Below are positions 1 through 15,978 of a stretch of DNA of 21,268 nt, piece by piece. The notes under the pieces were generated by a model. It was not told where the DNA came from and made no database searches. It saw only the letters and a program-made list of their open reading frames with translations. This DNA is from a virus. The first letter of the stretch is position 1. Every line of letters begins with the position of its first letter. The translations under genes and the position numbers were made by a program. The stretch covers positions 1-21,268 of IMG/VR virus record IMGVR_UViG_3300046001_006851. One strand, written 5' to 3'.

Positions 1-1225
1 TCTGTGGGAAGGCGATTGGAAAGCCAACTCGGGCTGTGCCAAAGCACAAAAGAAGCGCGAATCTATTCTCAAATGGCTAGACGGTGTTGCCACATACGGC
101 ATGACTCTGGATATCCCTACCTGGGTTATTCATGACAAGAATGCCAGCGACAAGTGCGGTATCAAAACACTGCAAGAAGCAGTTGACGCTACCAAATACA
201 ACAACGAATACTTTATGAAACATCGTAAAGGTGTTAAAAATGGTGGCATGAAAGTGTTGAATGTTCTGCAGGGTGCCAGTCATGCCGACGCTGATCGCTG
301 GTACGACCTAATGAAAGACTACTGCGATCCTGTCAAGTATCCAGACACACATTTTGATGGCTGGAGCATGGGTGGACAAAACATGTGTGATGTACACCTG
401 GTACTCCGACGCCTGGTGGCTCTGCGCTATGACAACCTGTTGCAAGAAGGCATACACGACTGGATGCACTTTCTAGGCACAAGCAAACTGGAGTGGGCAG
501 TGTTGCTCACAGTGATTCAACGGGCGGTGAGAAAGTATGTGAATCCGGCCTTTACCATCAGCTTTGATTGTGCCAGTCCGTTCCTGGCCACTGCCAACGG
601 ACAGGTGTACTTTGAAAGTGTGTTCCCGCATGATGACAAGTGGAGTTACCGCATGGCTCCCAGTGCCGACGATAAAAAATATGCCACTGACACACGCAAG
701 TGGGCCACCGGAGTTGTTGCCGACGGCGTCTACGATCGCTGGCAAGACTCGCCCATAAGCCAACATCTGCAGATGAAAGATATTTGTTATTACAAACCCG
801 GTGACCTAAATAAGATTGGCAAAGAAGGCAAAACAAGTTGGGACAGTTTCAGCTATGCTTTGTTGATGGGTCATAATGTGTGGTTACATTTGGAATCAGT
901 GCAACGGGCCAACAGAGAATTTGATGCTGGATCAAGACCCAAAATGATGTGGGACACCAATGGCGATTACACCAAGTTTGAAGACATTGTGGAAGCAATC
1001 TTTGCTACACCAGATCGAGCAGAAGCAGAAGCCATCATTGAACAGTACGATCGTTATTGGATGGACATAGTCGGCACTCGCGGATTCAAAGGCAAGAAGG
1101 CCAAAAACGCTCGTTCACAATTCAACGCATTGTTCGAAACAGTTGACGACGAGGTCGATGATAATGTACAATCACAACAAGCAATAGACGATCGAATTGC
1201 AATTCAAGAAGATTTAGGTTTATGA
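1..1225 (+). CDS. dpdA: DpdA-like 7-deazaguanine DNA transglycosylase (TGT superfamily), 5' end cut by window
   Basis: The frame is open from base 2, so the true start lies upstream; the first internal ATG is at 101. The protein follows the tRNA-guanine transglycosylase plan: a VLQG motif (about 253-270), a GWSMGGQN motif matching the TGT GyxxGGL loop (about 359-382), then FDCASPF. The Asp of FDC (codon 566-568) aligns with the TGT nucleophile in FDCVxPTR. A GHN motif near 868 matches the TGT Zn-site His. The CxCxxC zinc cysteines of tRNA-type TGTs are not visible; only one Cys (DICYY, about 778-792) lies there. Phage DpdA proteins swap guanine in DNA for a 7-deazaguanine base. folE, queD and queE in the same window make a DNA role more likely than tRNA queuosine modification. 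The subfamily cannot be set by eye. The gene overlaps the next one by ATGA. Confidence 0.8.
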   Translation, partial: LWEGDWKANSGCAKAQKKRESILKWLDGVATYGMTLDIPTWVIHDKNASDKCGIKTLQEAVDATKYNNEYFMKHRKGVKNGGMKVLNVLQGASHADADRWYDLMKDYCDPVKYPDTHFDGWSMGGQNMCDVHLVLRRLVALRYDNLLQEGIHDWMHFLGTSKLEWAVLLTVIQRAVRKYVNPAFTISFDCASPFLATANGQVYFESVFPHDDKWSYRMAPSADDKKYATDTRKWATGVVADGVYDRWQDSPISQHLQMKDICYYKPGDLNKIGKEGKTSWDSFSYALLMGHNVWLHLESVQRANREFDAGSRPKMMWDTNGDYTKFEDIVEAIFATPDRAEAEAIIEQYDRYWMDIVGTRGFKGKKAKNARSQFNALFETVDDEVDDNVQSQQAIDDRIAIQEDLGL

Positions 1226-1731
1226 TTAGAAAAGATCACGACGATTCGGTAAAGTTCTTTACTGGAACAGAAGTAGAACACACTCCTGCATTGGGAAAGA
1301 AAACTCTGTTTGTGGTGGGTGTGCAGTCAGTGGATGACATTGCTGCACACCTAACAGGCTGCGAACACATCTACTTTGGCGCCAACCAGAGTTTTCCCAA
1401 CTATGACATCAATGCTCGTGGTTGGCTAGACTGGGAGAACATGATTGGACCATTCCTAGACCGAGGTTATCTATGCACCCTAGACATAGATGTCAAATCC
1501 GTGGAAGGCTTGTTAGAAAGCGGATTCACCGAACATCACAACTTCATTCCCATGATATCGGTCAAGCTGCCTTACATACGCCAGCTGGGCTACAACGCCA
1601 CACTCAAACTGGACGACAAAGACTTTGCTGCTACCAATCCTGGAGTGTGGTGTCACAGTGTACACAAATTACAAAGTCGCACAGCATTCACTGACTGGGA
1701 TCAGTACAACAAAGACGAGGTAGTAAAATGA
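1222..1731 (+). CDS. conserved phage hypothetical protein next to dpdA
   Basis: A 169-residue protein whose ATG overlaps the dpdA stop (ATGA), so the two are probably translationally coupled. I do not recognise a named domain. Visible features are a hydrophobic strand (TLFVVGV) followed by QSVDDIAAHL, then HIYFGANQSF, and a second strand region (YLCTLDID). This pattern suggests a small alpha/beta fold. No signal peptide, membrane segment or metal motif is evident. Similar proteins seem familiar from T4-like aquatic phages, but I cannot name the family. Its position right after dpdA makes a link to base modification possible; this is inference from context only. It ends in an ATGA overlap with the next gene. 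Confidence 0.75.
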   Translation: MIRKDHDDSVKFFTGTEVEHTPALGKKTLFVVGVQSVDDIAAHLTGCEHIYFGANQSFPNYDINARGWLDWENMIGPFLDRGYLCTLDIDVKSVEGLLESGFTEHHNFIPMISVKLPYIRQLGYNATLKLDDKDFAATNPGVWCHSVHKLQSRTAFTDWDQYNKDEVVK

Positions 1732-2018
1732 TTAGATGGTTATGGTCAAGAATGATGAAATGGGGTTGGGATTTCAACCACAATCTACAAGAAAACGATG
1801 TAGTCTATGCCCTAGGAAGCAGAGATGATGATAGTATTGAATTGTCAGACCCATTAACCTTTAGAATACAAACAGTGTTGGGCGGCACCTTGATAGAAAC
1901 CAGTTATTATCATAGGAAATCAGAGGATCGTCGCTCTAAATTATATATTGTCACACCAGAAGAAAACTTGTCTGAAAGTGTGGGTAAAATTGTAACCATG
2001 GAACTACTACAAAAATGA
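1728..2018 (+). CDS. small hypothetical protein
   Basis: A 96-residue protein starting in an ATGA overlap with the preceding gene and ending in an ATGA overlap with the next, so it belongs to the same transcription unit as dpdA. The N-terminus is rich in Trp, Met and Arg (MIRWLWSRMMKWGW). The middle is acidic (ENDVVYALGSRDDDSIEL), and the rest alternates hydrophobic and polar residues as in a small beta protein. I see no catalytic motif and do not recognise the family. It is called as a gene because the overlaps on both sides and the open frame fit the operon pattern. Confidence 0.6.
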   Translation: MIRWLWSRMMKWGWDFNHNLQENDVVYALGSRDDDSIELSDPLTFRIQTVLGGTLIETSYYHRKSEDRRSKLYIVTPEENLSESVGKIVTMELLQK

Positions 2019-2488
2019 TACAAGCACAACGAGAAGCAATAGATCGCATCGTGGAAAAGGCCGAACGCAAAGTCTGGGTCACATTCCAAAAAGAAGGCAT
2101 ACATAAATACCCTGCGGCGCTGACAGATCCAGCGTTGGCCACAGGAGATGAATATGATGTATCGTTTTTGGGCCATCCTCATCGCCACATCTTTCATTTC
2201 AGGGTGTGGATCGATGTGTTCCATAATGACCGGGACATCGAGTTCATCCAATTCAAACGCTGGCTCGAAAACCTGTTCCGGCCTAAACATACCGACAATA
2301 ACAATAATACGGATTCCGTTCTAAGCCTTGACTACAAAAGTTGCGAGATGATCGCAGATGACATATATATACAGATTGCACAGCGATATCCGGACAGAGC
2401 TGTGTGGATTGAAGTATCCGAAGACAATGAAAACGGCTGCTTGATCAAGTATGAACTTTCTCGTCCTAACCTCTCTTTAAAAATTTAA
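2015..2488 (+). CDS. conserved phage protein, candidate divergent T-fold (QueD/PTPS-like)
   Basis: A 157-residue protein, coupled by ATGA to the gene before it. By eye it follows the order of QueD/6-pyruvoyltetrahydropterin synthase: a strand plus His (VTFQKEGIHKYP, H30), an HxH motif followed by an FHFRVWIDV strand (H56 and H58, where QueD has HGH), an acidic strand-helix (IEFIQFKRWL, where QueD has xxDFxxLK), a SCEMIADDI helix (like the QueD PTSExxAxxI helix), and a last strand VSED (like VKET). All three positions equivalent to the QueD zinc His are His, but the catalytic Cys before HGH is Leu (L52) and the LDH motif is LDY. If this alignment holds, it is a T-fold protein that could bind metal but lacks standard QueD catalysis. 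The fold call is inference; the gene is firm. It is a neighbour of dpdA. Confidence 0.75.
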   Translation: MIQAQREAIDRIVEKAERKVWVTFQKEGIHKYPAALTDPALATGDEYDVSFLGHPHRHIFHFRVWIDVFHNDRDIEFIQFKRWLENLFRPKHTDNNNNTDSVLSLDYKSCEMIADDIYIQIAQRYPDRAVWIEVSEDNENGCLIKYELSRPNLSLKI

Positions 2489-2500
2489 AAATTTTTAAAT
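2483..2500. repeat. perfect 18-bp AT-only palindrome at gene end
   Basis: The sequence ATTTAAAAATTTTTAAAT equals its own reverse complement. It covers the TAA stop of the gene ending at 2488 and lies in the 39-base gap before the next gene at 2528. With no GC in the stem it is a poor intrinsic terminator. It could be a protein-binding site or simply an AT-rich spacer. The rest of the gap has no clear promoter or strong ribosome binding site. Confidence 0.5.
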
Positions 2501-2527
2501 CTCATCAACCTTTAAAAAAGAAACATC

Positions 2528-2749: not shown

Positions 2750-2752
2750 ATC

Positions 2753-3619: not shown

Positions 3620-3620
3620 C

Positions 3621-4022: not shown

Positions 4023-4293
4023 ACAATTTGCCGAACAGGCTAAAAAATATGCTCTTGATGCTATGATTAAAATCACAGACCGAGAACAAGCATTGAAAGT
4101 GTATTCGGAATCTTATGATACAAAGTTCGCCGAGTTGATTGTGACGGAATGCTTGCGGCAGGTTGAAGAACAATACAAACCTGTGTTGGAAGATGAAGTC
4201 ATGATGAAGGACACGCATTGGGGTGGATATGTCCAATGCGGTGTTGATAGTTATGTGGCCATTAGAGAACATTTTTTTGGAGTTGAAGAATGA
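4006..4293 (+). CDS. small conserved phage-type hypothetical protein
   Basis: A 95-residue, mostly helical protein whose start lies inside the end of the upstream gene and whose stop overlaps the glycosyltransferase start by ATGA. The core KFAELIVTECLRQVEEQY and the C-terminal YVAIREHFFGVEE look like a pattern I associate with short hypothetical proteins of T4-like cyanophages and related phages. It has no catalytic motif, signal peptide or membrane span. Function unknown. Its tight coupling to the sugar block downstream may be positional only. Confidence 0.65.
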   Translation: MNEKIKQFAEQAKKYALDAMIKITDREQALKVYSESYDTKFAELIVTECLRQVEEQYKPVLEDEVMMKDTHWGGYVQCGVDSYVAIREHFFGVEE

Positions 4294-5492
4294 GAAAACT
4301 ATTTTATTGTGGTTTGGAGTCGTATGAAGCAAGGTACACTCTACAACTGACTGAATGGAACCGTCGTGTGTTCGATCGTAGAGGGTTGGATGTAGTTTAT
4401 GTTCCAGGCAGCACCATTGACAACACACAAAGTATCAGCGTGGGACAGGTGTTGGATGCACACGGCCGCAGTTACTTTGGCATGAGCCAAATGATGAATC
4501 TTGTGCAAATGATGCGCCGAGGAGAAGTCACAAGTGAAGATGTGATCTACTTTGAAGACATGTTTCAGCCCGGTATCGAGAGCTTGCCTTATATTCTTGA
4601 TCAAGTGGATGCGGATCAGCGTCCTAGGATCTATGTTCGCTGTCTTGCTCAGGCCATTGATCCTGATGATTTTGTTCATGTATGGGGCATGGAAAAGTGG
4701 ATGGGCCTGTATGAAAAAATGGTCAATGAGTTTGTGACAGGTGTGCTTGCTACCAACGAAGAAATGGTTGCTCACATGCGTATTGCAGGCTGGACTGCTC
4801 CTATCTACAACATCTCAGGCTTGGCGTTCGGCAAGGCAGAAGTACTGGAACGCATCGGCGGTGCGGAAAAAGTCCGACCATTTGAAGAACGCCCTCGTCG
4901 AGTGGGTTTTGCAGCTAGGTTTGATCAAGAAAAACAACCGGGCTTCTTCATGGATCTGATTGAGATGTACGGTGAACTCACCACGGAGCCTTGTGAGTTT
5001 GCCATCTACTCCGGCGGTGCATTGCGCAGCAACAATCCTGAATTTGTGACCCGTGCTAGAGCCATGGAAGCAGCCGGCAAGTTAAAAATCTATGACAACA
5101 TAAGCAAGAATGAATATTATGATCATCTCAATGACACTCGTGTATTGTTCAATTGTGCTTTACAGGACTGGGTTAGCAACACCGTCTCGGAAGCTGACAC
5201 TCTTGGAGCTAATGTGCTCTATCCTGCTTATCGTAGCTTTCCTGAAACTTTTGCAAACGATCCTAATCGACTTTATGTTCCCTGGAGCATAGATGATGCT
5301 TATCACAAGATGCAAAACTTGCTGCGTGAACCACATCACAACATGGGCTTGATCAGCGACTGGAACAACGGCACAGTTGATCGTGTGGTTGATATCATTG
5401 AAGGCCGCGGCGAACAATGGAATCGTGCAGGCAATCGATATCGTGATCATGTGGCACAAGACAAATATCATGTGAGAAAGATCGAATCATGA
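4290..5492 (+). CDS. GT-B glycosyltransferase (GT4-like)
   Basis: A 400-residue protein starting in an ATGA overlap, with GGAG at 4279-4282 upstream. The C-terminal half has the GT-B/GT4 signature order: VGFAARFDQEKQPGFFMDLI (the usual start of the nucleotide-sugar domain), then AIYSGG, then KLKIYDNISKNEYYDHLNDTRVLFNCALQDWVSNTVSEA, matching the GT4 donor-site region where a Glu contacts the sugar nucleotide. The N-terminal half (acceptor domain) has YFEDMFQPG and VRCLAQAIDP and is less typical. Donor and acceptor cannot be read from the sequence. It is followed directly by a GalE-like epimerase and a DegT-like aminotransferase, suggesting coordinated synthesis and transfer of a modified sugar. 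Cytoplasmic; no signal peptide. Confidence 0.8.
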   Translation: MRKLFYCGLESYEARYTLQLTEWNRRVFDRRGLDVVYVPGSTIDNTQSISVGQVLDAHGRSYFGMSQMMNLVQMMRRGEVTSEDVIYFEDMFQPGIESLPYILDQVDADQRPRIYVRCLAQAIDPDDFVHVWGMEKWMGLYEKMVNEFVTGVLATNEEMVAHMRIAGWTAPIYNISGLAFGKAEVLERIGGAEKVRPFEERPRRVGFAARFDQEKQPGFFMDLIEMYGELTTEPCEFAIYSGGALRSNNPEFVTRARAMEAAGKLKIYDNISKNEYYDHLNDTRVLFNCALQDWVSNTVSEADTLGANVLYPAYRSFPETFANDPNRLYVPWSIDDAYHKMQNLLREPHHNMGLISDWNNGTVDRVVDIIEGRGEQWNRAGNRYRDHVAQDKYHVRKIES

Positions 5493-6448
5493 GCACTGTT
5501 GTAGTAACAGGTGCTGCTGGTTACATTGGTGGCGAAATTGCCCTGTTGTTGAAAGATGCAGGGCACACTGTGGTTGGTATTGATCGCAGACCCTTGTCAA
5601 GTCATCTCAAAGACGTTATGGACTTTGTACAAGCAGACTTTGACAGCGACGACTCTTATCGCAAGTTGATTTCTGTACGGCCCGCAGCCATTGTACACTG
5701 TGCAGGCACCAGCTTGGTTGGCCCTAGCATTCTGCGTCCCAGTGATTACTACAACAACAATGTGGTCAAGACTCTCAACCTGCTGAACATTGTTATGGCT
5801 GCAATGCCGCAAACCAGATTTATCTTTAGCAGCAGTGCAGCAGTGTACGGTGACCCTGTTATGACTCCGTGTGATGAAGTTGATCCAAAGGAACCCATAA
5901 GTCCCTATGGTCAAAGCAAACTGATGGTGGAACAGATCCTGGAAAGTTATCACCGTGCATATGGTCTAGACTATGTGGCATTTCGCTATTTCAATGCGTG
6001 TGGCGCAGACAGCCAAGGCCGGCACGGTCAAGAGCCCGGGGCAACACACATCATTGCTCGAGTGCTGGAAAGCATTCGGGACCGTACAGAATTTGTGCTC
6101 AACGGCATTGATTACCCCACTCCCGACGGAACCTGTGTACGAGACTATGTGCATGTGGAAGATATTGCCCGAGCACACGTCATGGCGCTGGATTCAAAAG
6201 TCACAGCAGGCGTATACAATCTTGGATCCAACAACGGAACCAGCAACAGAGAAATCATTGATACAGCACAACAGGTCACTGGCAGTGCTGCGGTCGTTCA
6301 ACTTAGTCAGGCACGACCAGGCGATCCACCCGTACTTACTGCCAGTGCTGCCAAGTTTGGAATGGCTGTGGACGGCGCATGGCAAAAACATACTTTGCAT
6401 GACATGATTTCGCATGCATGGACCTGGTACAATCGATCCCATGTTTGA
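5489..6448 (+). CDS. galE: NAD-dependent sugar-nucleotide epimerase, GalE-like (extended SDR)
   Basis: A 319-residue protein with the Rossmann GxxGxxG motif at the N-terminus (VTGAAGYIG, G8/G11/G14), an acidic residue after strand 2 (GIDRR), the active-site SSAAVYG segment and SPYGQSK (the YxxxK catalytic pair), then RYFNACGAD and TCVRDYVHVEDIARAH, typical of UDP-glucose 4-epimerases. Length is close to the roughly 330 residues of GalE. The family interconverts UDP-glucose and UDP-galactose, but relatives act on other UDP-sugars, so substrate is unproven. The start overlaps the glycosyltransferase stop by ATGA. The gene ends inside the start of the aminotransferase. It probably supplies the donor sugar for the nearby transferases. 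Confidence 0.85.
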   Translation: MSTVVVTGAAGYIGGEIALLLKDAGHTVVGIDRRPLSSHLKDVMDFVQADFDSDDSYRKLISVRPAAIVHCAGTSLVGPSILRPSDYYNNNVVKTLNLLNIVMAAMPQTRFIFSSSAAVYGDPVMTPCDEVDPKEPISPYGQSKLMVEQILESYHRAYGLDYVAFRYFNACGADSQGRHGQEPGATHIIARVLESIRDRTEFVLNGIDYPTPDGTCVRDYVHVEDIARAHVMALDSKVTAGVYNLGSNNGTSNREIIDTAQQVTGSAAVVQLSQARPGDPPVLTASAAKFGMAVDGAWQKHTLHDMISHAWTWYNRSHV

Positions 6449-7028
6449 TAAGATTCTAAAATTTGAACATGCGCTGGCAGAGTTCACCGGCGCACCTTAT
6501 GTGATCATGACCGATTGCTGCACACATGCCATCGAACTTTGTCTACGCTATGACCGGATACGAAGCTGTAGTTTTACAGCATTTACCTATCTGAGTGTGG
6601 CCATGACCATGCACAAACTGGGCATCAAGTACGGCCTGGAAAACGAAGTCTGGACCGGTGAGTATCACATTCATGACACTCGAATCTGGGACAGTGCTAG
6701 ACGACTGGAAAAGAACATGTATCGACCTGGTGCCATGCAGTGCTTGAGTTTTGGACACGGTAAACCCCTGCATATTGGTCGTGGTGGTGCCATCTTGTTG
6801 GATGATCCAGCAGCATACGAGATCATGATTCGTCAACGCTATGATGGACGCGACCTAAATACATCACCCTGGCAAGCACAACACACATTTCAAGTTGGAT
6901 ATCACTACAAGCCCACGCCCGAAGAAGCTGTTCAAGGTCTGGCCATGTTGGAAGGAATCAAGGACCAAGGCTGTGTGCCTGTGCATGTCGCTTACCCAGA
7001 CCTAAGAACTATTACCATAGTAGATTGA
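6441..7028 (+). CDS. very short DegT/DnrJ/EryC1-like sugar aminotransferase
   Basis: The chosen start at 6441 (8-base overlap with the epimerase) begins right at the family's usual FExxLAEFTG segment; an in-frame ATG at 6414 is the alternative. From 6441 the protein has 195 residues, against about 370 for the family. It keeps DTRIWDSARRL (D84, the Asp that pairs with the PLP nitrogen), SFGHGKPLHIGRGGAIL (K108 as the likely Schiff-base Lys, followed by the typical glycines), and VGYHYKPTPEEAVQGLAML, like the family's GxNxRMxxxxAAxGLxQL. The spacing before D84 is shortened and the C-terminal small domain is absent. It may be a minimal active enzyme or a decayed one. The frame is intact and the gene sits in a sugar block. 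Confidence 0.75.
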   Translation: MFDKILKFEHALAEFTGAPYVIMTDCCTHAIELCLRYDRIRSCSFTAFTYLSVAMTMHKLGIKYGLENEVWTGEYHIHDTRIWDSARRLEKNMYRPGAMQCLSFGHGKPLHIGRGGAILLDDPAAYEIMIRQRYDGRDLNTSPWQAQHTFQVGYHYKPTPEEAVQGLAMLEGIKDQGCVPVHVAYPDLRTITIVD

Positions 7029-7094: not shown

Positions 7095-7793
7095 ATGGAC
7101 ACAAGTAAAAATTTAGCACAGGTGCTTCGCGAACGAATGCAAGCCGACAACAAGCGTTTCTGGGCTGGTGATAACATCAGCGAGTATGTTAAAGATGAGT
7201 TTGACAAGAACTATCTTATTGAAGAGGCAACTGTAGCGTTTGAGGGTGTACTCGATGCACTGTTAATTGATCGTGAGAATGATCCTAATAGCAAAGGTAC
7301 AGCACGCCGCCTTGCTAAAATGTACTTCAATGAAATTATGGCAGGTAGATATGAACCAGCACCAGATGCAACCGCTTTCCCAAATGATTCGGCAGACCGT
7401 TACGAAGGTATGTTGGTGGTTAGAAGTGAGCTTCGTAGTATGTGTAGTCATCATCATCAGCCTGTGTCCGGTGTGGCTTATATCGGAATCATTGCTGCTC
7501 AAAAACTTATTGGTCTTAGCAAGTACACTCGCATTGCTCAGTGGTGTGCCCGTCGCGGTACATTACAGGAAGAACTCTGCAATGACATTGCACGAGAAAT
7601 CTCCAAAGCAACTGAAAGCGACAATGTAGCAGTGTATCTTGAAGCGGAACATGGCTGCTGCACCAATAGAGGAATAATGGCACACAGTAGTCTGACACAG
7701 ACCACAGTGCTCAAAGGTGCATTCAAGGACGACAAAGGAACAAAGAAGGAATTCTTTGACAATATCTTGCTTCAGTCAAGAAACGGTAATTAA
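7095..7793 (+). CDS. folE: GTP cyclohydrolase I (FolE type)
   Basis: A 232-residue enzyme converting GTP to 7,8-dihydroneopterin triphosphate, first step of both folate and 7-deazaguanine synthesis. Hallmarks appear in order: DPNSKGTARRLAKMY (family form DxxxTPxRvA), RSMCSHHHQPVSG (C117 and H120 match E. coli zinc ligands C110 and H113; the usual Glu of CEHH is Ser118), IGLSKYTRIAQW, RRGTLQEEL, and EHGCCTNRGI (C188 matches C181). All three zinc ligands are therefore present. The start follows GGAG (7084-7087) eight bases ahead. It is the first gene of a new transcription unit. With queD, queE and dpdA in the window, the product probably feeds DNA modification rather than folate. Its product begins the route that queD and queE continue. 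Confidence 0.92.
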   Translation: MDTSKNLAQVLRERMQADNKRFWAGDNISEYVKDEFDKNYLIEEATVAFEGVLDALLIDRENDPNSKGTARRLAKMYFNEIMAGRYEPAPDATAFPNDSADRYEGMLVVRSELRSMCSHHHQPVSGVAYIGIIAAQKLIGLSKYTRIAQWCARRGTLQEELCNDIAREISKATESDNVAVYLEAEHGCCTNRGIMAHSSLTQTTVLKGAFKDDKGTKKEFFDNILLQSRNGN

Positions 7794-7809
7794 ATTAAAG
7801 GAAAATAAT

Positions 7810-8337
7810 ATGACACAAACTGTACCCAATGTAAAATTTGCATTTCGCGAAGGCGACGAAGCTCCCGAAGATGGCGGTTGCCCGATCGGCGGAGAATTTG
7901 TTTTTAAAACAAGCACGGATTTGTTTGCCAACAAACAAGTGATTGTCTTTAGTCTGCCCGGAGCATTTACTCCCACTTGCAGCACATACCAACTGCCGGG
8001 CTTTGAACAAAAGTTTGAAGAATTTCGAGCCAAAGGCATTGATGAGATTTATTGCATCAGTGTCAACGATGCCTTTGTAATGAACGAATGGGCTCGATCG
8101 CTGGGTATTAAAAATATCAAAGTCGTCCCAGACGGCGCCGGTACTTTTACCGACGGAATGGGCATGACAGTTGACATGAGTGAGATTGGATTTGGCCTGC
8201 GCAGTCGTCGTTATGCGGCAGTGATCAACAACTGCAAAGTAGAAAAAATGTTTGTGGAACCCGACTCCAGTGCCGCAGATCCAGATCCTTACGGTGTTTC
8301 TAGCCCCGAGAGTGTGATGAAGTACATCGACCAATGA
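7810..8337 (+). CDS. peroxiredoxin, Prx5-like
   Basis: A 175-residue thiol peroxidase. The start at 7810 is preferred over an earlier in-frame ATG (7717) because AAAGGA lies seven bases ahead, the earlier one is deep inside folE, and homology begins after 7810. The peroxidatic Cys is C57 in [13 protein letters not shown], the standard PxxxTxxC active site. R134 in RSRRYAAVI matches the conserved Arg of Prx5 proteins. Other Cys are C24, C82 and C141; whether one acts as resolving Cys is unclear. No glutaredoxin domain is fused. The family reduces H2O2 and alkyl hydroperoxides in the cytoplasm. It overlaps the ferredoxin start by ATGA, so the two are coupled. Such an enzyme is unusual cargo for a phage. 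Confidence 0.9.
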
Positions 8338-8660
8338 CCTATGTTGTAACCGAAGAATGTATTCTTTGCAAACACACTGACTGTGTTGCGGTGTGTCCGG
8401 TAGATTGTTTTGTGGAAGGTCCAAACTTTCTAGCAATCGACCCGGATGGATGTATCGACTGTGCAGTGTGTGTGCCCGAGTGTCCAGTCAATGCTATCTA
8501 TGCCGAGGATGATGTTCCGGCACACTTACAAGCATTTGTGGATATCAATGCAGAATTGGCAAAAAAATGGTCGCCTATAACCAAACGAAAAGATCCACTG
8601 CCAGACCATGAAAAATGGACAAATGTTCCCAATAAATTAGAACATTTGGATCGCAGTTGA
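8334..8660 (+). CDS. fdxA: 7Fe-8S ferredoxin (FdxA type)
   Basis: A 108-residue ferredoxin closely matching the bacterial FdxA/Azotobacter FdI plan over its whole length. All nine cysteines of FdI have counterparts: C9, C12, C17, C21, C25, C40, C43, C46 and C50. In FdI the equivalents of C9, C17 and C50 bind the 3Fe-4S cluster and those of C21, C40, C43 and C46 bind the 4Fe-4S cluster. The C-terminal tail (LNAELAxxW...KDPLPDxxxW...LEHL-type) also matches, so it is not truncated. It starts in an ATGA overlap with the peroxiredoxin, suggesting linked redox roles; the electron partner is unknown. Its stop codon is part of the -35 box of the next promoter. Gammaproteobacteria and Betaproteobacteria carry this type widely. 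Confidence 0.93.
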
Positions 8661-8717: not shown

Positions 8718-10931
8718 ATGACCAAAGTATTGAAATTTTTTGCAATTGCCGTGATGGCAATGACCATGGGGCTGGCAGTAGCAGCTGATGTAGTTCGCTA
8801 TGCGTATATCACTGCCATGGTAAAACAACCCAATGGCACGGTGATTAACCAACAATGGAAATACACCTACATCAACAACAAGCTTCGAGCCAAGGACCTA
8901 ATCAGTGCCACAACAGTTGGCGCCGTGGCATCTGTTGCGCGGCCTGTAACCCCAACTGTGACTCCAGCGGTGACTCCAGCGGTGATCCCAACTGTGCCCA
9001 GGCTAGTGTTTGATGCCAATTTCAACGCGGCCACCTACTACAACAACCCCAACATGGGCACGCCTACAGCAGTGCCCAGTTTTGACCCCAGCTGGTATTT
9101 GACCAGTGAGGCTGGCAAAACAATCTCAGCCACGGGTGCCAACTATGCCTATGCTCGTGGCTGGACTGGCAAGGGCTCGACCATTATGGTGATGGACACT
9201 GGCATTGCTGTGGCTGGCAGTGAGTTTGCTGGAAAAATCAAATACAGCGTGGACTACACACAGACCAGCATATTGGACACAGTGGGTCACGGCAGCCAGG
9301 TGGCAGCCATTGCGGCCGCTGCTCGTGACGGCAAAGGCATGCATGGTGTGGCCTACGATGCCAATCTGGCCATTGCCAAGATTGGCACGGGTAATAGCGT
9401 CAGCATGGCATCAGCTCGTCAAGCACTGGTGTGGGCACAGCAGTACACAGACATTGTGGTGGCTAACTTGAGTTCCAATGTGAACTATGCCGCTGACTAC
9501 ACCAGATCTGTTTACAGGTTGGCTGACGGTACTTTTTACAGCAACCATGTCAACTACGGTGGCACCAACTACTACAACTTGGAACGACCAACTGATTGGT
9601 CTGCGGTGTTGGGCAAGCAAATGGTGCTGGTTGTGGCCGCAGGCAATCAAGGCCTAGGCTATGTGCAGTCGCCTGCGGTGTTTGCGTCTGCTGTGGGCCG
9701 AGACGGCCGACTAGTGATGAATGGGCAGATGATTATTGCAGGTGGCTGGAACACCACCACCAACTCAGTGGAGGGCAACGGTGCAGGACACATTTGCAAA
9801 GTGTCAGTGAATCAGGTGTGTCAAGACAGTTATCGCACCAAAGACTTCTTCTTGATGGCGCCCAGTGTGGCCATTGAAACTGTGGGTGCAGACGGTGCAT
9901 ATCGAACCAGCAGCGGCACCAGTTTTGCTGCACCTGCCATATCTGGTGCAGTGGCTGTGGTTCATCAGTTGTGGCCCTACATGAAGGGTGATCAGCTGGC
10001 TCAGCTGCTGTTTAAAACTGCCAATAAAAACATAAAAAACTACAACGCAGATCAAATGGGCCATGGGCTGTTGGATCTCAACAGGGCCACACAGCCAGTG
10101 GGGTCGCTGGGCGTTTCAGTCACAGGTCGAACAGGCACAGCGCGGCCACTCAGCGGCGGTTTGGCCATTGCTGGTGTGATGGATGCATCAGTGTCCAGCA
10201 TGCTGTCGGCTGTGTCGGCTGTTGACAGCTTTGAACGAGACTTCACAGTGAACCTGTCATCTGCTGCTGGCAGCACTGTGCAGCCTGTGGAACACATGCA
10301 GCAGACTGCGGGACAAAGTTGGAGCAGTAAATTTGCAGGTCCTTCAGTCACAGCCCGAGGTGTGACCATCAGTGGCACGGGTGCCAACATCAGTGTGGGA
10401 GTCAGCAGCCAAGCATTTGATCTTCATCGGCAAGCCTTGCAGTATCAAGCCACAGTCACACAAGTGGCACACAATCCTTGGGTCAACTTCTCTGGCATGT
10501 GGGGACAAAGTGCAGGCTCCACCACTGCTGAATTCAGCATGTTGTACAGCCCAGACGCTTCGGGTGCATGGGCACAGGCAGGTGTTATGAACACTGCGGG
10601 CCAATACCAGTACGCCATGGTCAATCGCGTGTCTGACATTCGCAGTGCCTATGCTGTAGCAGGGTGGAGGAACAACAGTGTGAACTTGTATGCTGGCTTC
10701 AAGCCTACTGTGACCAGTGGCTCAGTCAACTTGACAGTTCCCACCAGTGTTGATGCTGATGGAGTCATGCACTACAGCAACGCAACCAATCAGATCCGTA
10801 ACCAACGCACTGGTTTTGTTGGCGCCAGTGTTGACTATGCACCTGTGCGCAATCACAGCCTAAATTTATCAACAACATATGGCCAAGATGGCACAGGCCA
10901 AATTGGTTTGAAATACAAGATTGCTTTATAA
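8718..10931 (+). CDS. secreted S8 subtilisin-like protease, possible autotransporter
   Basis: A 737-residue protein with AGGAGG five bases before the ATG. The N-terminus is a signal peptide (MTKVLKFFAIAVMAMTMGLAVAA, cut probably after A23). A Pro/Thr/Val linker (residues 76-93) precedes the protease domain. The triad is D160 (IMVMDTG), H191 (VGHGSQVA) and S402 (SGTSFAAPAISGA), with oxyanion Asn N310 (VVAAGNQG). Residues from about 475 on are Ser/Gly/Thr-rich with alternating strands and could form an outer-membrane beta-barrel, as in S8 autotransporters; the final residue is Leu rather than the usual Phe, so this is uncertain. Bases 10081-10140 are about 63% GC by hand count, well above neighbouring genes. 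Composition and export signal suggest acquisition from a bacterium. A role in remodelling the host envelope is possible. Confidence 0.88.
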   Translation: MTKVLKFFAIAVMAMTMGLAVAADVVRYAYITAMVKQPNGTVINQQWKYTYINNKLRAKDLISATTVGAVASVARPVTPTVTPAVTPAVIPTVPRLVFDANFNAATYYNNPNMGTPTAVPSFDPSWYLTSEAGKTISATGANYAYARGWTGKGSTIMVMDTGIAVAGSEFAGKIKYSVDYTQTSILDTVGHGSQVAAIAAAARDGKGMHGVAYDANLAIAKIGTGNSVSMASARQALVWAQQYTDIVVANLSSNVNYAADYTRSVYRLADGTFYSNHVNYGGTNYYNLERPTDWSAVLGKQMVLVVAAGNQGLGYVQSPAVFASAVGRDGRLVMNGQMIIAGGWNTTTNSVEGNGAGHICKVSVNQVCQDSYRTKDFFLMAPSVAIETVGADGAYRTSSGTSFAAPAISGAVAVVHQLWPYMKGDQLAQLLFKTANKNIKNYNADQMGHGLLDLNRATQPVGSLGVSVTGRTGTARPLSGGLAIAGVMDASVSSMLSAVSAVDSFERDFTVNLSSAAGSTVQPVEHMQQTAGQSWSSKFAGPSVTARGVTISGTGANISVGVSSQAFDLHRQALQYQATVTQVAHNPWVNFSGMWGQSAGSTTAEFSMLYSPDASGAWAQAGVMNTAGQYQYAMVNRVSDIRSAYAVAGWRNNSVNLYAGFKPTVTSGSVNLTVPTSVDADGVMHYSNATNQIRNQRTGFVGASVDYAPVRNHSLNLSTTYGQDGTGQIGLKYKIAL
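8958..8981 (+). repeat. 12-bp tandem repeat coding the Pro-rich linker
   Basis: GTGACTCCAGCG occurs twice in tandem (8958-8969 and 8970-8981), with partial copies on both sides. It encodes the VTPA repeat between the signal peptide region and the protease domain. Such repeats change linker length by slippage without breaking the frame. Confidence 0.6.
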
Positions 10932-11323
10932 TGAAACATAGAACTCACATATTTTCGGAAAATATTCCAAGTTCAATTGAGGATAGTTCTGCTCCATGGA
11001 CAAGTTTGGTAAGAGAAGACTTCCATGTGGCAGTGTACGAGGACCGTTATCCGTGTACGCCAGGCCACCTGTTGTTTGTGCCCAAGCACAATACTATGTC
11101 AGTGGTACTGGATGCATTCAACGATGCAATTATACATGGACAGACCATGATTGAGAATGGTCAATGTGACGGATTCAATATTGGTATGAATTACGGCAGT
11201 GCCGCAGGACAGACAGTCGAGTGGCCACATGTTCATTTGATTCCCAGACGGCACGGAGATGTTGAGGACCCAGTGGGAGGTGTACGCAATACCATTCCTG
11301 GCAAGGGCAACTACCATAAATAA
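10931..11323 (+). CDS. HIT-family nucleotide hydrolase-like protein
   Basis: A 130-residue protein with its ATG overlapping the protease stop by one base (TAATG). It has the HIT features: YPCTPGHLLFVPK, CDGFNIGMNYGSAAGQTVEWPHVHLIPRRHGD, then EDPVGGVRNTIPGK. Classical members have HxHxHxx after GQTV; here the first His is Trp (WPHVHLI). The middle His, which is the nucleophile in HINT and Fhit enzymes, and the third His remain. The family hydrolyses dinucleoside polyphosphates or nucleoside phosphoramidates in the cytoplasm; the substrate here is unknown. The variant may still be active. The stop codon lies within a CATAAATA late-promoter-like motif (11315-11322). Confidence 0.85.
   Translation: MKHRTHIFSENIPSSIEDSSAPWTSLVREDFHVAVYEDRYPCTPGHLLFVPKHNTMSVVLDAFNDAIIHGQTMIENGQCDGFNIGMNYGSAAGQTVEWPHVHLIPRRHGDVEDPVGGVRNTIPGKGNYHK
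11315..11322 (+). promoter_or_regulatory. candidate T4-like late promoter (CATAAATA)
   Basis: CATAAATA matches the NATAAATA form of late promoters described for T4-like cyanophages (TATAAATA in T4). It overlaps the HIT stop codon and lies 84 bases ahead of queD. The same twelve bases, CATAAATAAAAA, recur at 19727-19738 in another gap. Function is inferred from the motif only. Confidence 0.4.
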
Positions 11324-11352: not shown

Positions 11353-11381
11353 TTTACAAACTCTGCCACCTATGCTATAAT
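11353..11381 (+). promoter_or_regulatory. sigma70 promoter with extended -10 for queD
   Basis: TTTACA (11353-11358) and a perfect TATAAT (11376-11381) are 17 bases apart. TGC directly before TATAAT gives the extended -10 form TGnTATAAT. AGGAG (11387-11391) and the queD ATG (11399) follow closely. Confidence 0.75.
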
Positions 11382-11398
11382 CACATAGGAGAAAAATA

Positions 11399-11950
11399 AT
11401 GGCAAACTCATCAGTGGACTTAATCCGTCATTTAGAAGAAAACTTACAAAACACTAGACCAGTGAACTATAGGTACACCAGCACCAAAGAGTATCACGAC
11501 TCTTTTCCCTGCGCCTATCGACAATGGCGTGCTGACAGTCACTGTAATCTAATACACGGCTACAGCTTCAACATGAAGTTTTACTTTGGTACCAATGATC
11601 TGGATGCTCGCAACTGGGCTGCTGATTATGGAGGTCTCAAAGAACTCAAAGGTATATTGGAAAGTCAATTTGATCACACTTTATTGGTGGCCGAGGACGA
11701 TCCTGAACTGGCGTTTTACAAAGAAATGGAACGCCGCAAGTTGGCCAAACTGACTATTCTGCCCAAACTAGGCTGCGAAGGTCTGGCTGACCAGCTGTAC
11801 AAATATGTCAATGGTGTTTACATTCCAGACATGTGGGGTCAGGCAGAATCCAAACGCTTGTGGTGCTATCGTGTGGAAGTGCGTGAAACACAAGCCAACA
11901 TGGCGTTCCGTGAAGGACATCGTGAGTGGAATGAAGATTTATTTGAATAA
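11399..11950 (+). CDS. queD: QueD-like 6-carboxytetrahydropterin synthase with altered zinc site
   Basis: A 183-residue protein with AGGAG seven bases before the ATG. QueD converts dihydroneopterin triphosphate (FolE product) to 6-carboxytetrahydropterin. The sequence aligns with E. coli QueD at SHCNLIHGYSF (C49 matches catalytic C27; H53 matches H31), AADYGGLK (like xxDFxxLK), FDHTLL (D92-H93 match D70-H71) and VRET (E163 matches E110). Two zinc ligands differ: H16 is Y40 (FPCAYRQW) and H33 is Y55 (HGY instead of HGH). The catalytic residues are kept while the standard three-His zinc site is not. It is longer than bacterial QueD (about 120 residues), with an N-terminal extension and an insert before GCEGLA. 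Context with folE, queE and dpdA supports a pathway role; metal use is open. Confidence 0.85.
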   Translation: MANSSVDLIRHLEENLQNTRPVNYRYTSTKEYHDSFPCAYRQWRADSHCNLIHGYSFNMKFYFGTNDLDARNWAADYGGLKELKGILESQFDHTLLVAEDDPELAFYKEMERRKLAKLTILPKLGCEGLADQLYKYVNGVYIPDMWGQAESKRLWCYRVEVRETQANMAFREGHREWNEDLFE

Positions 11951-11958
11951 GAAACAAC

Positions 11959-12780: not shown

Positions 12781-12782
12781 TC

Positions 12783-13562
12783 ATGACATCAACACTGGAA
12801 CAACGCATCAAACAATACTGGAACAATCAGCCTTGCAATATTCGACACAGCGGAAATGAAATTGGCAGTTTAGATTTCTTTAAAGAAGTTTCGGCTCGTA
12901 GATCTCAAGTGGAGCCACATATTCCGGAGTTTGCCGGCTTTCATCTCTGGCAGGGCAAACAGGTTTTGGAAATTGGCCCAGGTATTGGATCTGATGCTGC
13001 GGAGTTTGCTCGTCACGGTGCTGACTATTACGGCATAGACTACAGTGAAGAAAGTGTCAAACTTGCTCGTAAACGATTCGAAGTTGAAGAACTCGACGGC
13101 AATTTCCACTGTGGTGACGCCAGCGACCGAGACATGTACATTGGCTTGCCGCAGTTTGATTTGATCTACAGTTACGGTGTTATACATCATTTTCCTGCCA
13201 TTGATAAAATTATCAACAATGTGCATCAAGCTCTCAAGCCCGGTGGCGAATTCCGTTTTATGGTGTATGCCCGTGACAGTTGGAAACAGGCCATGATCAA
13301 TAAAGGTCTAGATCAATACGAAGCACAGGCCGGGTGTCCCTATGCCAAAAGCTATACCAAAGATGATATTGCAGTGCTGTTGGGATCGCAATTTCACATT
13401 GAGCGGTTGCGGCAGGATCATTGTTTCATGTATAATGTACAAGCATACAAGCAAGGCCGATATGAACTGGAGCCGTGGTTTGAAGCCATGCCTGCTGCAA
13501 TGAGAGAAGCTGTCAGAGAGTATCTAGGCTGGCACCTGTTGGTCAAAGCACGAAAGATTTAA
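12783..13562 (+). CDS. class I SAM-dependent methyltransferase
   Basis: Start chosen at ATG 12783, two bases after the upstream stop; an in-frame ATG at 12756 overlaps the previous gene by 25 bases and is the alternative. From 12783 the protein has 259 residues. Motif I is VLEIGPGIGSDAAEFARHG, followed by the acidic end of strand 2 (YYGIDYSEESVKLA), GDASD, and motif IV/post-region FDLIYSYGVIHHFPAIDKIINN, then LKPGGEFRFMVYA. This is the standard Rossmann methyltransferase of the Methyltransf_11/25 type. The substrate cannot be read. Neighbouring glycosyltransferase genes suggest a sugar or lipid acceptor; modification of a 7-deazaguanine precursor cannot be excluded. Confidence 0.85.
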   Translation: MTSTLEQRIKQYWNNQPCNIRHSGNEIGSLDFFKEVSARRSQVEPHIPEFAGFHLWQGKQVLEIGPGIGSDAAEFARHGADYYGIDYSEESVKLARKRFEVEELDGNFHCGDASDRDMYIGLPQFDLIYSYGVIHHFPAIDKIINNVHQALKPGGEFRFMVYARDSWKQAMINKGLDQYEAQAGCPYAKSYTKDDIAVLLGSQFHIERLRQDHCFMYNVQAYKQGRYELEPWFEAMPAAMREAVREYLGWHLLVKARKI

Positions 13563-13565
13563 TAA

Positions 13566-13976
13566 ATGAAATTGCCAAAAAACTTATCCGTAGATTCAGA
13601 CTGGTCAACAATCGATCTGTCGTCGGCAGAGTACACATTAGACAGTAACATGACAACGCCCTACACAATCAATACTTCTACAATCAATACTTCTCCATGG
13701 AAAAATGTTTCTGGTACAAGCAGTACCGGTACAGTGAGCATCAGCGAAAATGGTATTGAAATGCAACCCGGTGCTGATATTGTGATTGGCGGCCAGAGTT
13801 TGACAAAAACACTGGCTGCCATAAACGAACGATTGGCCATTTTACAACCAAACACCCAACTAGAATCAGAGTGGAAAGAATTGAAAGAGCTGGGCGAACG
13901 CTACCGCGAAATGGAGCAAGACCTGCTGGAAAAAGCCCGAGTCTGGGGTATACTCAAAGCACCAAGCAAGCGATAG
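13566..13976 (+). CDS. conserved phage-type hypothetical protein with C-terminal coiled coil
   Basis: A 136-residue protein. The N-terminal half is Ser/Thr/Asn-rich and low in complexity (including TINTSTINTS). The middle has GADIVIGGQSLTKTLAAINERLAILQPN, then LESEWKELKELGERYREMEQDLLEKARVWGILK, a long charged amphipathic helix that fits a coiled coil. This C-terminal pattern is familiar from hypothetical proteins of T4-like cyanophages and pelagiphages, where a role in the virion is plausible but not known to me. No signal peptide or enzyme motif. It starts three bases after the methyltransferase stop. Confidence 0.7.
   Translation: MKLPKNLSVDSDWSTIDLSSAEYTLDSNMTTPYTINTSTINTSPWKNVSGTSSTGTVSISENGIEMQPGADIVIGGQSLTKTLAAINERLAILQPNTQLESEWKELKELGERYREMEQDLLEKARVWGILKAPSKR
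13665..13694 (+). repeat. perfect 15-bp tandem duplication
   Basis: ACAATCAATACTTCT occurs twice head to tail (13665-13679 and 13680-13694), giving the TINTS peptide twice in the Ser/Thr-rich N-terminal half of the surrounding gene. The identity of both copies suggests a recent in-frame duplication. Confidence 0.7.
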
Positions 13977-13989
13977 ATGTAACACACCA

Positions 13990-14493
13990 ATGACCGAAGA
14001 AAAAAAATCTAATATTGCCAAAGGTAGAAATAGCTTTGATGCAGATATAGATGGTGCCATTGTTCCGTTCTTCAATCGAAATGTCACGCCGTATGGCACT
14101 GAAGCAGGTGGTGCTAAATTTGAACTGGTTCCTGTTACCAAACAAAAAGACATAATGATCAATCATGCTAGGATGTATGCCCAGCAAGAACATGATAGAA
14201 TTATGCAGTTGGTTGCTGTGTTGGAAAAGCAAGCGCAGGATATCAAACGCCGATTGGATGTAACAGATGCAGTGCATGCAGCAGAGTATCAATTTCAAGT
14301 GGTGATAGGCAACTGTTACTGGCTAGCCTGGGACCGCCGCAAAGAAAAAATGCTGCTGGTTCATCATGGACCCAATGACTGGAGTAGTGGGCCGCCCGAT
14401 AATTATGTGTATCAGTCACAGGTAAAATACATGGGTGACCATACATGGATGGAAATAACTGAAGGAACAGGCAATGGGAACATATTACCGTAA
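13990..14493 (+). CDS. DUF2452-like protein
   Basis: A 167-residue protein. The central helix (IMQLVAVLEKQAQDIKRRLDVTDAVHAAEY) followed by FQVVIGNCYWLAWDRRKEKMLLVHHGPNDW and VKYMGDHTWMEI matches, from memory, the DUF2452 pattern of a helix, then FxPxIGxxYxLY, EEW, and a final LLADHTWE motif. The family occurs in bacteria and phages with no assigned function. No transmembrane span or signal. It ends inside the following methyltransferase gene (20-base overlap), so the two are probably translated together. Confidence 0.7.
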   Translation: MTEEKKSNIAKGRNSFDADIDGAIVPFFNRNVTPYGTEAGGAKFELVPVTKQKDIMINHARMYAQQEHDRIMQLVAVLEKQAQDIKRRLDVTDAVHAAEYQFQVVIGNCYWLAWDRRKEKMLLVHHGPNDWSSGPPDNYVYQSQVKYMGDHTWMEITEGTGNGNILP

Positions 14494-15094
14494 CATAACA
14501 AAATTCATTGACACAATTGACAACGGCCATTGGATCGAAATTGGAGTGGACCGTGGCGAAGGCAGTACCCGATTCTTTGCGGATCTGTGCCAAGCTCGTG
14601 GGGTGGATTTTTACGGTGTAGATATGGATGCTGAACAAATTAAACGGGCAACCAGCAATTTAATGGTTGACGGAACACTGCCAGATCATGTAAAATTAGC
14701 ACAGGCCAAGGGCGAAGAATTTTTACAACAGTTGGACCCAGCAGTTAAAATATCATTGGCATACCTGGACAACTTTGATTGGGATTACTGGTTGGGTGGC
14801 GCAGAAGAAGGGTTTGTAGCCGGTGTCAAACAGAAGTATAGAGATTTAATGAACATTGAGATGACCAACCTAAATAGTCAGCAAACACACCTGTTGCAGG
14901 CAATCTTGTTGATGAACAGGATGACTGACAACAGCATTATCATATGTGATGACACTTGGTATCATCCGCAAGAAGGTGTTTTCATTGGCAAGTGCTCTGC
15001 TGCTATTCCTTTTCTAATGCTGCAAGGATATAGACATTTGCACAATGATGGATACAGGCAAAACAGCGGCGCAATTTTTGGAAGATTTAAGTAA
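14474..15094 (+). CDS. SAM-dependent methyltransferase-like protein (Methyltransf_24 type)
   Basis: A 206-residue protein with GAAGGA (14461-14466) ahead of its ATG, which lies inside the previous gene. WIEIGVDRGEGSTRFFADL is a motif I variant, VDFYGVDMDAEQIKRA gives the acidic residue after strand 2, and SIIICDDTWYHP fits the metal-binding or active-site strand of the Methyltransf_24/cephalosporin hydroxylase-like group. Those enzymes include sugar and O-methyltransferases. The substrate is unknown; the sugar genes around it suggest glycan methylation. The C-terminal YRQNSGAIFGRF is a typical final strand. Followed eight bases later by queE. Confidence 0.7.
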   Translation: MGTYYRNITKFIDTIDNGHWIEIGVDRGEGSTRFFADLCQARGVDFYGVDMDAEQIKRATSNLMVDGTLPDHVKLAQAKGEEFLQQLDPAVKISLAYLDNFDWDYWLGGAEEGFVAGVKQKYRDLMNIEMTNLNSQQTHLLQAILLMNRMTDNSIIICDDTWYHPQEGVFIGKCSAAIPFLMLQGYRHLHNDGYRQNSGAIFGRFK

Positions 15095-15102
15095 AGGATA
15101 AT

Positions 15103-15978
15103 ATGTTCGGAACAAACGAAATCATTGGCAAGAAGTACTTTAAAGACGCACAAGAAAACACCTTGATGGTGACCAGTATGTTCTTTACCTTACAAGGTGA
15201 AGGACCCTATGCTGGCTTGCCAGCACTGTTTATTCGACTGGCCAAATGCAACTTGGATTGCAGTTTCTGTGACACATTCTTTGATGACGGTGATGTGTTC
15301 ACCTATGCAGAACTGGAACAAAAGGCACATGAAACTATTCGCGACTTTTGGGTCAGCAAAGGCAAACCAGTGCCTGAGTGGGCAGTGCGGGATCGCAACG
15401 ACTATCCCGGAGTTGTTCTGGTAATGACTGGCGGCGAACCCTTGCTGCAAGACAACATCTCGGGATGGATGAAACGACAGTTGTTGCACTACAAAGCAGT
15501 GCAGGTTGAAAGCAACGGCATACCTGACACAGATGTGCCTACTGGTGTCACACTGGTGTGTTCGCCCAAATGCATTGAGAAGAATGGCAAGGCTGTCAAG
15601 TATCTTGCACCCAGTAAAACTATTTTAGACCGTGCAGACTGTTTGAAGTTTGTTGTAACTGCCGATGCGGAATCACCTTACAACACAGTTCCAGACTGGG
15701 CATTTGAATGGAAACAGCGCAACCCCAACAAGGAAGTTTACTGTAGCCCAATGAACGTCTACAACAGTTTTCCACAGAAGATCAAATTGTTGCGAGCAGA
15801 GAAAGGCCAAATAACCATGGCTGAACGCAGCACTGTGGATGAAGTGATTAGTTTTTGGGAACCAGGGCTGTTGAACTTGGCTGACAACCAACGCAATCAT
15901 GAATATGTGGGGCAGTTTTGTATAGAGAATGGGTTCAAGTTGAACTTGCAGCAGCATCTATACACAAGTTTGGCATAA
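15103..15978 (+). CDS. queE: 7-carboxy-7-deazaguanine synthase (radical SAM)
   Basis: A 291-residue radical SAM enzyme that rearranges 6-carboxytetrahydropterin to 7-carboxy-7-deazaguanine. FTLQGEGPYAGLPALFIRLAKCNLDCSFCDT is the QueE signature: QGEG, then the cluster motif CxxxCxxC with C49, C53 and C56. VMTGGEPLLQ is the SAM-binding GGEP motif, VESNG and VCSPK match later QueE core strands, and LQxHxY near the C-terminus is typical of QueE. It is longer than E. coli QueE (223 residues), mainly through an insert after the cluster motif and an extended C-terminal half. AAAGGA lies five bases ahead of the ATG. It is third in the route after folE and queD. Confidence 0.92.
   Translation: MFGTNEIIGKKYFKDAQENTLMVTSMFFTLQGEGPYAGLPALFIRLAKCNLDCSFCDTFFDDGDVFTYAELEQKAHETIRDFWVSKGKPVPEWAVRDRNDYPGVVLVMTGGEPLLQDNISGWMKRQLLHYKAVQVESNGIPDTDVPTGVTLVCSPKCIEKNGKAVKYLAPSKTILDRADCLKFVVTADAESPYNTVPDWAFEWKQRNPNKEVYCSPMNVYNSFPQKIKLLRAEKGQITMAERSTVDEVISFWEPGLLNLADNQRNHEYVGQFCIENGFKLNLQQHLYTSLA

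Follow-up and report, generated by a model that had tools for sequence, protein, structure and literature searches.

Do 7-deazaguanine genes that lie kilobases apart in a virus genome work as one pathway, and do the genes between them take part in it? The question is raised by IMG/VR virus record IMGVR_UViG_3300046001_006851, a stretch of 21,268 bases classed as linear (often a sign of a fragment), which was analyzed whole and is called the window below. An initial annotation had recognized dpdA-like, folE, queD-like, and queE genes in it and had proposed a dispersed 7-deazaguanine DNA modification pathway with sugar, redox, and protease genes as separators. All four genes were recovered, and the pathway is supported by the tRNA-guanine transglycosylase (TGT) fold of the DpdA-like protein, by a family profile closer to that of phage DpdA2 (96% probability) than to that of tRNA TGT (30%), and by FolE, a PTPS-family protein, and QueE, all three of which are present in each of the nine large records searched. 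Kilobases do lie between the genes, but "dispersed" is misleading, as they form one ordered block in 160 viral loci inspected; moreover, at least two of the supposed separators, a glycosyltransferase (GT) and a 157-amino-acid protein, occur together with dpdA, folE, or queE in phages of different classification. It is very likely that these genes serve to replace guanines in the phage DNA with 7-deazaguanines, and we consider it probable (roughly 60%) that the block encodes a QueC-less pathway of 7-deazaguanine DNA hypermodification in which glycosylation follows insertion of the base by the DpdA-like enzyme.

An ordered block with two additional members

The block genes named here all lie on the + strand of the window, in which ARAGORN found no tRNA genes.

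2..1225 (+): DpdA-like open reading frame (ORF), 407 amino acids, open at the window start, with the N-terminal ∼112 residues missing
1222..1731 (+): g1222, a 169-amino-acid protein that follows dpdA in this lineage; no Pfam match
2015..2488 (+): g2015, a 157-amino-acid protein, phrog_17812
4290..5492 (+): GT4290, a GT-B, GT4-type glycosyltransferase, candidate base-modifying enzyme
5489..6448 (+): NAD-dependent sugar epimerase/dehydratase (PF01370, E = 6.4e-57)
6414..7028 (+): short DegT/DnrJ/EryC1-type aminotransferase, 204 amino acids (PF01041, E = 2.5e-14)
7095..7793 (+): FolE, GTP cyclohydrolase I (PF01227, E = 2.8e-39)
10931..11323 (+): HIT-domain protein near folE and queD/queE (PF01230, E = 3.4e-8)
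11399..11950 (+): phage-type QueD-like PTPS (PF01242, E = 1.6e-13; phrog_2389, E = 3.7e-35)
15103..15978 (+): QueE, radical-SAM 7-carboxy-7-deazaguanine synthase (phrog_2076, E = 1.6e-44)

The order of the marker genes present is constant in 80/80 near and 80/80 distant loci, each set being the best 80 loci of its scan and consisting of mutually related loci. Across seven regions, the recurring order is sliding clamp, DpdA, g1222, g2015, GT, epimerase, aminotransferase, FolE, HIT, QueD, GT11959, QueE, SGNH, and exonuclease; the clamp is visible in six of them, as the window begins inside DpdA, and the aminotransferase is found in all except region G001 (L104). The FolE of that region is only 34.9% identical to the window FolE and, judging by sequence, is likely a non-orthologous replacement. 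Exceptions to the order came from loci of other scans: GT precedes DpdA in L286, GT precedes g2015 in Pseudomonas phage PA5oct, where g1222 is located elsewhere, and HIT precedes FolE in some loci. A pattern query of IMG/VR gave 507 matches, 502 of which encode relatives; for a wider query, the figure is 597 of 599 among the matches listed.

Presence was counted in loci with at least 6 kb downstream, 37 near and 39 distant. GT and g2015 are found in every one of these, and g1222 in 37 near and 38 distant loci. The near loci also contain the epimerase (36), the aminotransferase (32), FolE (32), HIT (23), QueD (21), GT11959 (12), and QueE (1, the gene mostly lying past the flank), and none contains the exonuclease; the distant loci contain QueE (31), FolE (30), the exonuclease (24), HIT (16), and the epimerase (5), and none contains the aminotransferase, QueD, or GT11959. 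The GT4-type glycosyltransferase (4290 to 5492) and the phrog_17812 protein (2015 to 2488) are members of the block.

Of 17 family rows compared over up to seven regions, GT ranks first in mean identity (83.4%; DpdA, 81.6%; clamp, 76.9%). It varies more than DpdA in a broader set of 90 loci (50.1% versus 59.2%) because there are two GT subtypes. An epimerase comes next after GT in 30 of 33 loci that have the window-type GT, compared with 2 of 30 that have the other type, a count made with a loose motif that misassigned L154 and left L167, which has an epimerase, untypable. Of 80 loci from the reverse scan, which started from GT, 73 contain DpdA, and the other seven begin no more than 2.4 kb before GT; where at least 2.5 kb of upstream sequence was available, a DpdA-family gene is present in 71/71. 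A sliding clamp gene lies within the available stretch of 65 of the 80 GT loci.

The DpdA-like protein and the route to 7-carboxy-7-deazaguanine

The DpdA-like ORF matches nothing in Pfam, PHROGs, NCBIfam, or PDB sequences, and Pfam matches none of 53 family members; the earlier label thus needed evidence from fold and profile. The family profile produced only two chance-level matches against PDB, so a sequence-only link to solved TGT failed; hhalign gave no link between the family and phage 9g DpdA, and single-sequence comparison with the DpdA2 of phage nt-1 gave weak scores. The structure was predicted from 53 sequences for a relative (protein P0001 of L002) that is 94% identical to the window ORF over the shared part and shows that the full-length protein has 519 residues. 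In a Foldseek search of PDB with this model (pLDDT 86.8), the 15 top-ranked matches are TGT types without exception (best E = 5.3e-8); with VIA-align, 50/50 among the matches listed are TGT types with Z scores of 18.1 to 19.3, a Z of 19.3 corresponding to 305 residues at a root mean square deviation of 4.4.

Two motifs run through the family, DSGG[FY]Q in 164 of 165 ORFs and IS[FY]D in 151 of 165; we take the catalytic role of both Asp motifs from TGT. DSGGxQ belongs to the region that the window ORF lacks. The window ORF does carry ISFDCASP, and by analogy the Asp of this motif (near 566 to 568) is likely the nucleophile site. A CxCxxC zinc motif was not seen on reading the family alignment. 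In pairwise hhalign comparisons, the family matches DpdA2 (seven phages) with a probability of 96.4% (E = 1.3e-9) over a span that includes both motifs, versus 30% for bacterial tRNA TGT, a set in which four of eight rows held usable sequences and four were empty. Bacterial DpdA-like members alone give 96.3% to DpdA2 and 70.3% to tRNA TGT, and DpdA2 itself gives 92.8% to TGT. By profile comparison, not by tree, the protein is therefore nearer to DpdA2 and does not group with tRNA TGT, the outcome that the initial annotation had singled out as adverse to its proposal. The DpdA2 of phage ACP17 matches the broad DpdA-like profile at an E value of 4.1e-5 versus 2.2e-176 for the D2 profile, in whose build ACP17 was included; thus, in sequence, the window family looks like a sister group of DpdA2 and not DpdA2 itself.

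A sliding clamp gene precedes DpdA in most DpdA loci listed. Scans with the DpdA proteins of PA5oct and Vibrio phage 2.275.O found no loci, and one with Phosso DpdA found two. Bacterial DpdA-like genes on genome contigs (L214 to L243; 26 to 35% identity) come from Limnohabitans, Polynucleobacter, Sphingobium, Novosphingobium, and others, and all eight bacterial genomes tested that carry such a gene also carry a true TGT (E ≤ 1e-144). Directly upstream of the DpdA-like gene in L217, L220, L232, and L243 lies an uncharacterized gene for 500 to 660 amino acids, on the opposite strand in L220; a cytosine-methyltransferase-like gene, identified by reading, is nearby in L217.

FolE, QueD, and QueE form the established pathway from GTP to 7-carboxy-7-deazaguanine (CDG). 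Aligned to a solved enzyme, the window FolE keeps the C-x-H-H and H-x-C pattern, which we take to be metal and active-site residues, and QueE matches PDB 7-carboxy-7-deazaguanine synthase (E = 2.7e-12). The QueD-like protein matches its phage family strongly and solved enzymes weakly (E = 0.016), with HGY and AYR where the solved enzymes have HGH. We had considered HGY a sign of a non-QueD function and withdrew this idea, as the QueD-like proteins of PBPA162 (which has QueC), phiST, ACP17, and ZZ01 are all HGY; PA5oct has one HGH and one HGY protein. Among homologs of the HIT protein, 37 of 39 match [WY]PH[VI]HLIP, in which W or Y stands in place of the first triad His, if the normal HIT triad is as we assume. 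The record notes of PA5oct EST35_0253 and EST35_0254 (FolE and QueD) cite electrospray ionization tandem mass spectrometry (ESI-MS/MS). FolE was detected in virions of Vibrio phage 6E351A (PMC12028318; here and below, statements from papers cited by PMC number refer to the available portions of those papers).

The glycosyltransferase, g2015, and QueC in other phages

The predicted structure of the window GT (pLDDT 82.6) has a GT-B fold of the GT4 type, with matches to BshA (E = 6.5e-11), sucrose-phosphate synthase (Z = 25.8), and MshA (Z = 25.3). The window protein itself has no Pfam match; Glycos_transf_1 is found at E ≤ 0.01 in 12 of 54 GT homologs and is above the cutoff in Xanthomonas phage X1 and Synechococcus phage BUCT-ZZ01.

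The GT/g2015 pair adjoins dpdA, folE, or queE in the differently classified cultured phages PA5oct, Phosso, ACP17, X1, and BUCT-ZZ01. In PA5oct, the gene directly after dpdA is a GT homolog; such homologs occur in 11 records of Pseudomonas phages, two of them for PA5oct. In PA5oct-type phages, the g1222 homolog is ∼28 kb from dpdA. The order in ACP17 is QueD-like, FolE, a g1222 homolog (E = 2.1e-24) directly before DpdA2, GT (1.8e-81), g2015 (1.1e-52), and QueE. X1 carries GT (profile E = 1.4e-45; Pfam, 45.5 bits), DpdA2, g2015, and QueE, and BUCT-ZZ01 carries QueE, a phosphoribosyltransferase, QueD, FolE, a second, weakly GT4-like protein, DpdA2, g2015, and a window-type GT (E = 1.9e-142). 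In Phosso, g2015 and GT are near FolE and QueE, and dpdA is 172 kb away. Outside phages, a 17-kb contig of Azospirillum isscasi contains a DpdA-like gene, GT in the opposite orientation, a Vut_1 (YhhQ-like) transporter, and, by reading of translations, integrase-like genes. Its GT turned up in a single one of 385 genomes sampled from the class, namely the one to which the contig belongs, and in no plasmid of the collection searched. Since two transglycosylase families and differing gene orders are involved, a single inherited block does not explain the linkage.

A phosphoribosyltransferase gene recurs inside the cassette (L168:9492-10085, PA5oct EST35_0321, and ZZ01 71302-71763) and is present in 28 loci, including PA5oct, as well as in ZZ01; its product may salvage the guanine released by DpdA.

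QueC has no match in the window, and none lies above the cutoff in 18 of 19 relatives, which are virus records and possibly fragments. In the remaining relative, G002, the above-cutoff match beside queE reads as NAD synthetase-like and was rejected; G004 has a weak match under the cutoff. PA5oct, Phosso, ACP17, and ZZ01 have no QueC match, and X1 has one of 16.2 bits, under the cutoff. All five of these QueC-less phages contain g2015, and none of five QueC-bearing phages does (nt-1, pf16, Moby, and Vibrio 2.275.O, in which QueC was identified by match, and PBPA162, by annotation). In total, g2015 matches are found in 26 records: 11 PA5oct-type phages, 2 ACP17 records, Phosso, X1, ZZ01, 5 Cellulophaga phages, and 5 others. 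We considered g2015 as a PTPS relative, an idea that hhalign did not support (9.7%). No GT was found in the regions scanned of nt-1 (17.5 kb), 2.275.O (30 kb), and PBPA162 (8.5 kb), nor by profile scan in the ∼2.5 kb each covered of pf16 and Moby. Searches with GT by blastp and tblastn miss distant members: the window GT as the query found none in Phosso, and X1 and ZZ01 escaped tblastn with the GT from Azospirillum; the absence of GT from QueC-bearing phages therefore rests on profile scans of partial regions.

The proposed pathway and its alternatives

The genes themselves, the predicted TGT and GT-B folds, the conserved order, and the recurrent linkage in phages of different classification and in one bacterial contig are what the analysis shows; from there we infer the enzyme activities, the order of the steps, the sugar, its acceptor atom, and a modified base in virion DNA. 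FolE, the phage-type QueD, and QueE would convert GTP to CDG; the phrog_17812 protein probably takes the place of QueC in acting on CDG, and the DpdA-like enzyme would swap guanine in DNA for CDG or a derivative. The GT4-type enzyme, for which sugar transfer to a DNA base is a candidate role suggested by its gene neighborhood, would then put a sugar on the inserted base. In the window lineage, the epimerase next to GT, alone or together with the short aminotransferase, would supply the activated sugar. Plain CDG may well not be the end product, and the pathway most likely serves to evade host restriction. The broader proposition, that these phages carry glycosylated 7-deazaguanine in DNA (for example, a sugar on CDG), made with a GT4 enzyme and with phrog_17812 replacing QueC, and that this system extends across several phages of different classification and a mobile contig of a bacterium, is in our view about an even bet.

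Several observations weigh against this interpretation. Because the block is passed on as a unit in the main lineage, linkage there does not count as independent evidence, and kinship of ACP17, X1, and ZZ01 may matter as well; among the 30 bacterial DpdA-like loci, only one has a GT. The GT fold list is that of a generic GT4 enzyme, and no known DNA glucosyltransferase is among the matches listed, although the absence of T4 alpha- and beta-glucosyltransferases from these matches excludes nothing. The window-type GT reads QDWVSNTVSEAD where others read ETLGISxYEGA, so what we take to be the usual E-x7-E motif of such enzymes is altered. The window-type QueD lacks the zinc histidines that would be expected, although QueC-bearing PBPA162 shares its HGY motif, and the contiguous C-x3-C-x2-C of the window QueE is missing from 34 of 35 QueE ORFs in the loci. 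There are also g2015 records in which no GT was found: Cellulophaga phage phiST has g2015 with no GT match in the 14 kb scanned, and RHph_I1_18, Bakedbeans, D479, Ahp1, and MA9V-3 have it with no GT by tblastn, the method that also missed X1 and ZZ01. Cui and others are reported to have predicted a CDG decarboxylase, DpdL, in phages in 2023. If phrog_17812 is DpdL, the base would lose its carboxyl, which would leave no obvious acceptor for the sugar. Finally, the base content of these phages was not found reported in the literature searched.

The DNA might instead contain a plain 7-deazaguanine, either dCDG or, after decarboxylation by phrog_17812, dDG, with GT acting elsewhere, for example, on a virion protein or a host surface sugar. 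All enzymes to CDG are present together with a DpdA, phiST has a QueD-QueE-FolE-MazG-g2015 cluster in a stretch where QueC is not annotated, and glycosyltransferase clusters of jumbo cyanophages are thought to build surface polysaccharide (PMC7824862). Nevertheless, GT is found next to or not far from dpdA or folE in PA5oct, Phosso, ACP17, X1, ZZ01, and one bacterial contig, and the sampled genomes of that bacterium's class contain it just once, which makes this explanation unlikely, if well worth keeping in mind. A DpdA-like enzyme that acts on tRNA, or that conjugates deazaguanine to protein as Cap10 does, is very unlikely. Cap10 does appear among the fold matches, though weakly (9ntn, rank 20, E = 0.012), but by profile the family lies closer to DpdA2 than to TGT, the zinc motif was not seen in the alignment, the eight bacterial genomes tested retain their own TGT, and the sliding clamp accompanies most DpdA loci listed and 65 of 80 GT loci; in addition, phage nt-1, with DpdA2, carries dPreQ0 (PMC6884629).

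The presence of FolE and a PTPS in the cassette, and of tetrahydrobiopterin glucosyltransferases among the GT fold matches (9v0l, Z = 22.4; 5ze7, rank 28), would also suit an enzyme that modifies a free pterin derived from the FolE product, as the cyanobacterial tetrahydrobiopterin glucosyltransferase does, with the DNA pathway being separate. We give this slim odds, as many GT4 enzymes score equally or better and GT adjoins dpdA, not folE, in PA5oct, ACP17, X1, and the Azospirillum contig; Phosso shows the reverse, with GT near folE and far from dpdA. The odds are slimmer still for T4-like glucosylation of hydroxymethylated pyrimidines alongside the deazaguanine pathway. A thymidylate-synthase-family gene lies near folE in PA5oct, and 8 of 18 records and the Azospirillum contig have such a gene, yet 10 of the 18 have none, including GT-carrying relatives of 352,754 and 337,119 bases (possibly incomplete virus records).

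Glycosylation of an inserted 7-deazaguanine remains our preferred interpretation, and the proposed system differs in some respect from each of its closest known counterparts. The preQ0-type pathway of the nt-1/KVP40-like DpdA2 phages has a TGT-related enzyme with DSGG and IS[FY]D motifs, and FolE and PTPS are annotated; unlike the window, nt-1 has QueC, is not among the 26 phrog_17812 records, and has no GT match in the stretch scanned. The ACP17 cassette shares the same type of QueD-like protein, FolE, g1222, GT, g2015, QueE, and the lack of a QueC match, but its transglycosylase is DpdA2 proper and no epimerase is annotated in its stretch. PA5oct has the same DpdA-like family (36% identity), FolE, QueD, QueE, and GT directly after dpdA; its FolE and QueD, however, are 54 kb away. 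The proposed sugar on a modified base after replication resembles the action of the T4 alpha and beta enzymes and other phage DNA glycosyltransferases, except that the window base would be a 7-deazaguanine and the GT fold is of a generic GT4 type.

The PA5oct system for deazaguanine synthesis and incorporation is already known, having been predicted by Iyer and others in 2021, with GT not mentioned in the portion available (PMC7824862); what is added here is GT and phrog_17812 as members of the block. Vibrio phage 6E351A has a cluster with DpdA and QueF and 15% modified dG with the mass of dPreQ1 (PMC12028318). A 2026 review refers to deazaguanine incorporation in jumbo phages as a prediction (PMC13282480), and a paper on a new aquatic jumbo lineage names glycosyltransferases and, in its available portion, not deazaguanine (PMC12619734). 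The available main text of papers on MIJ3, PA5oct, Callisto, and Paride has no mention of deazaguanine, and no link between a glycosyltransferase and a deazaguanine cluster was found in the literature searched, available in part and with some key literature lying outside it.

If the proposal is correct, a jumbo-phage lineage with hundreds of virus-collection contigs, as well as cultured Pseudomonas, Acidovorax, Xanthomonas, Synechococcus, and Sinorhizobium phages, would carry a sugar on the base at guanine positions, and restriction and sequencing of these phages would behave differently. It would explain why QueC-less deazaguanine clusters exist, define a class of base hypermodification that unites the deazaguanine and sugar strategies, and provide a new tool enzyme for DNA labeling.

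The rest of the window contains further genes. Between folE and the protease, 7807 to 8660 encodes a peroxiredoxin and a DUF3470 ferredoxin, the latter recurring in several near relatives. The protease, a subtilase (PF00082; 8718 to 10931) with homologs in three of six large relatives, has on reading of its translation a signal-like N terminus and a long autotransporter-like C-terminal part, unusual in a phage. Between queE and the exonuclease, 16379 to 17703 encodes two similar tandem proteins, presumably SGNH-like, the first of which matches DUF6071; one or two copies of this type are found in 7/7 regions.

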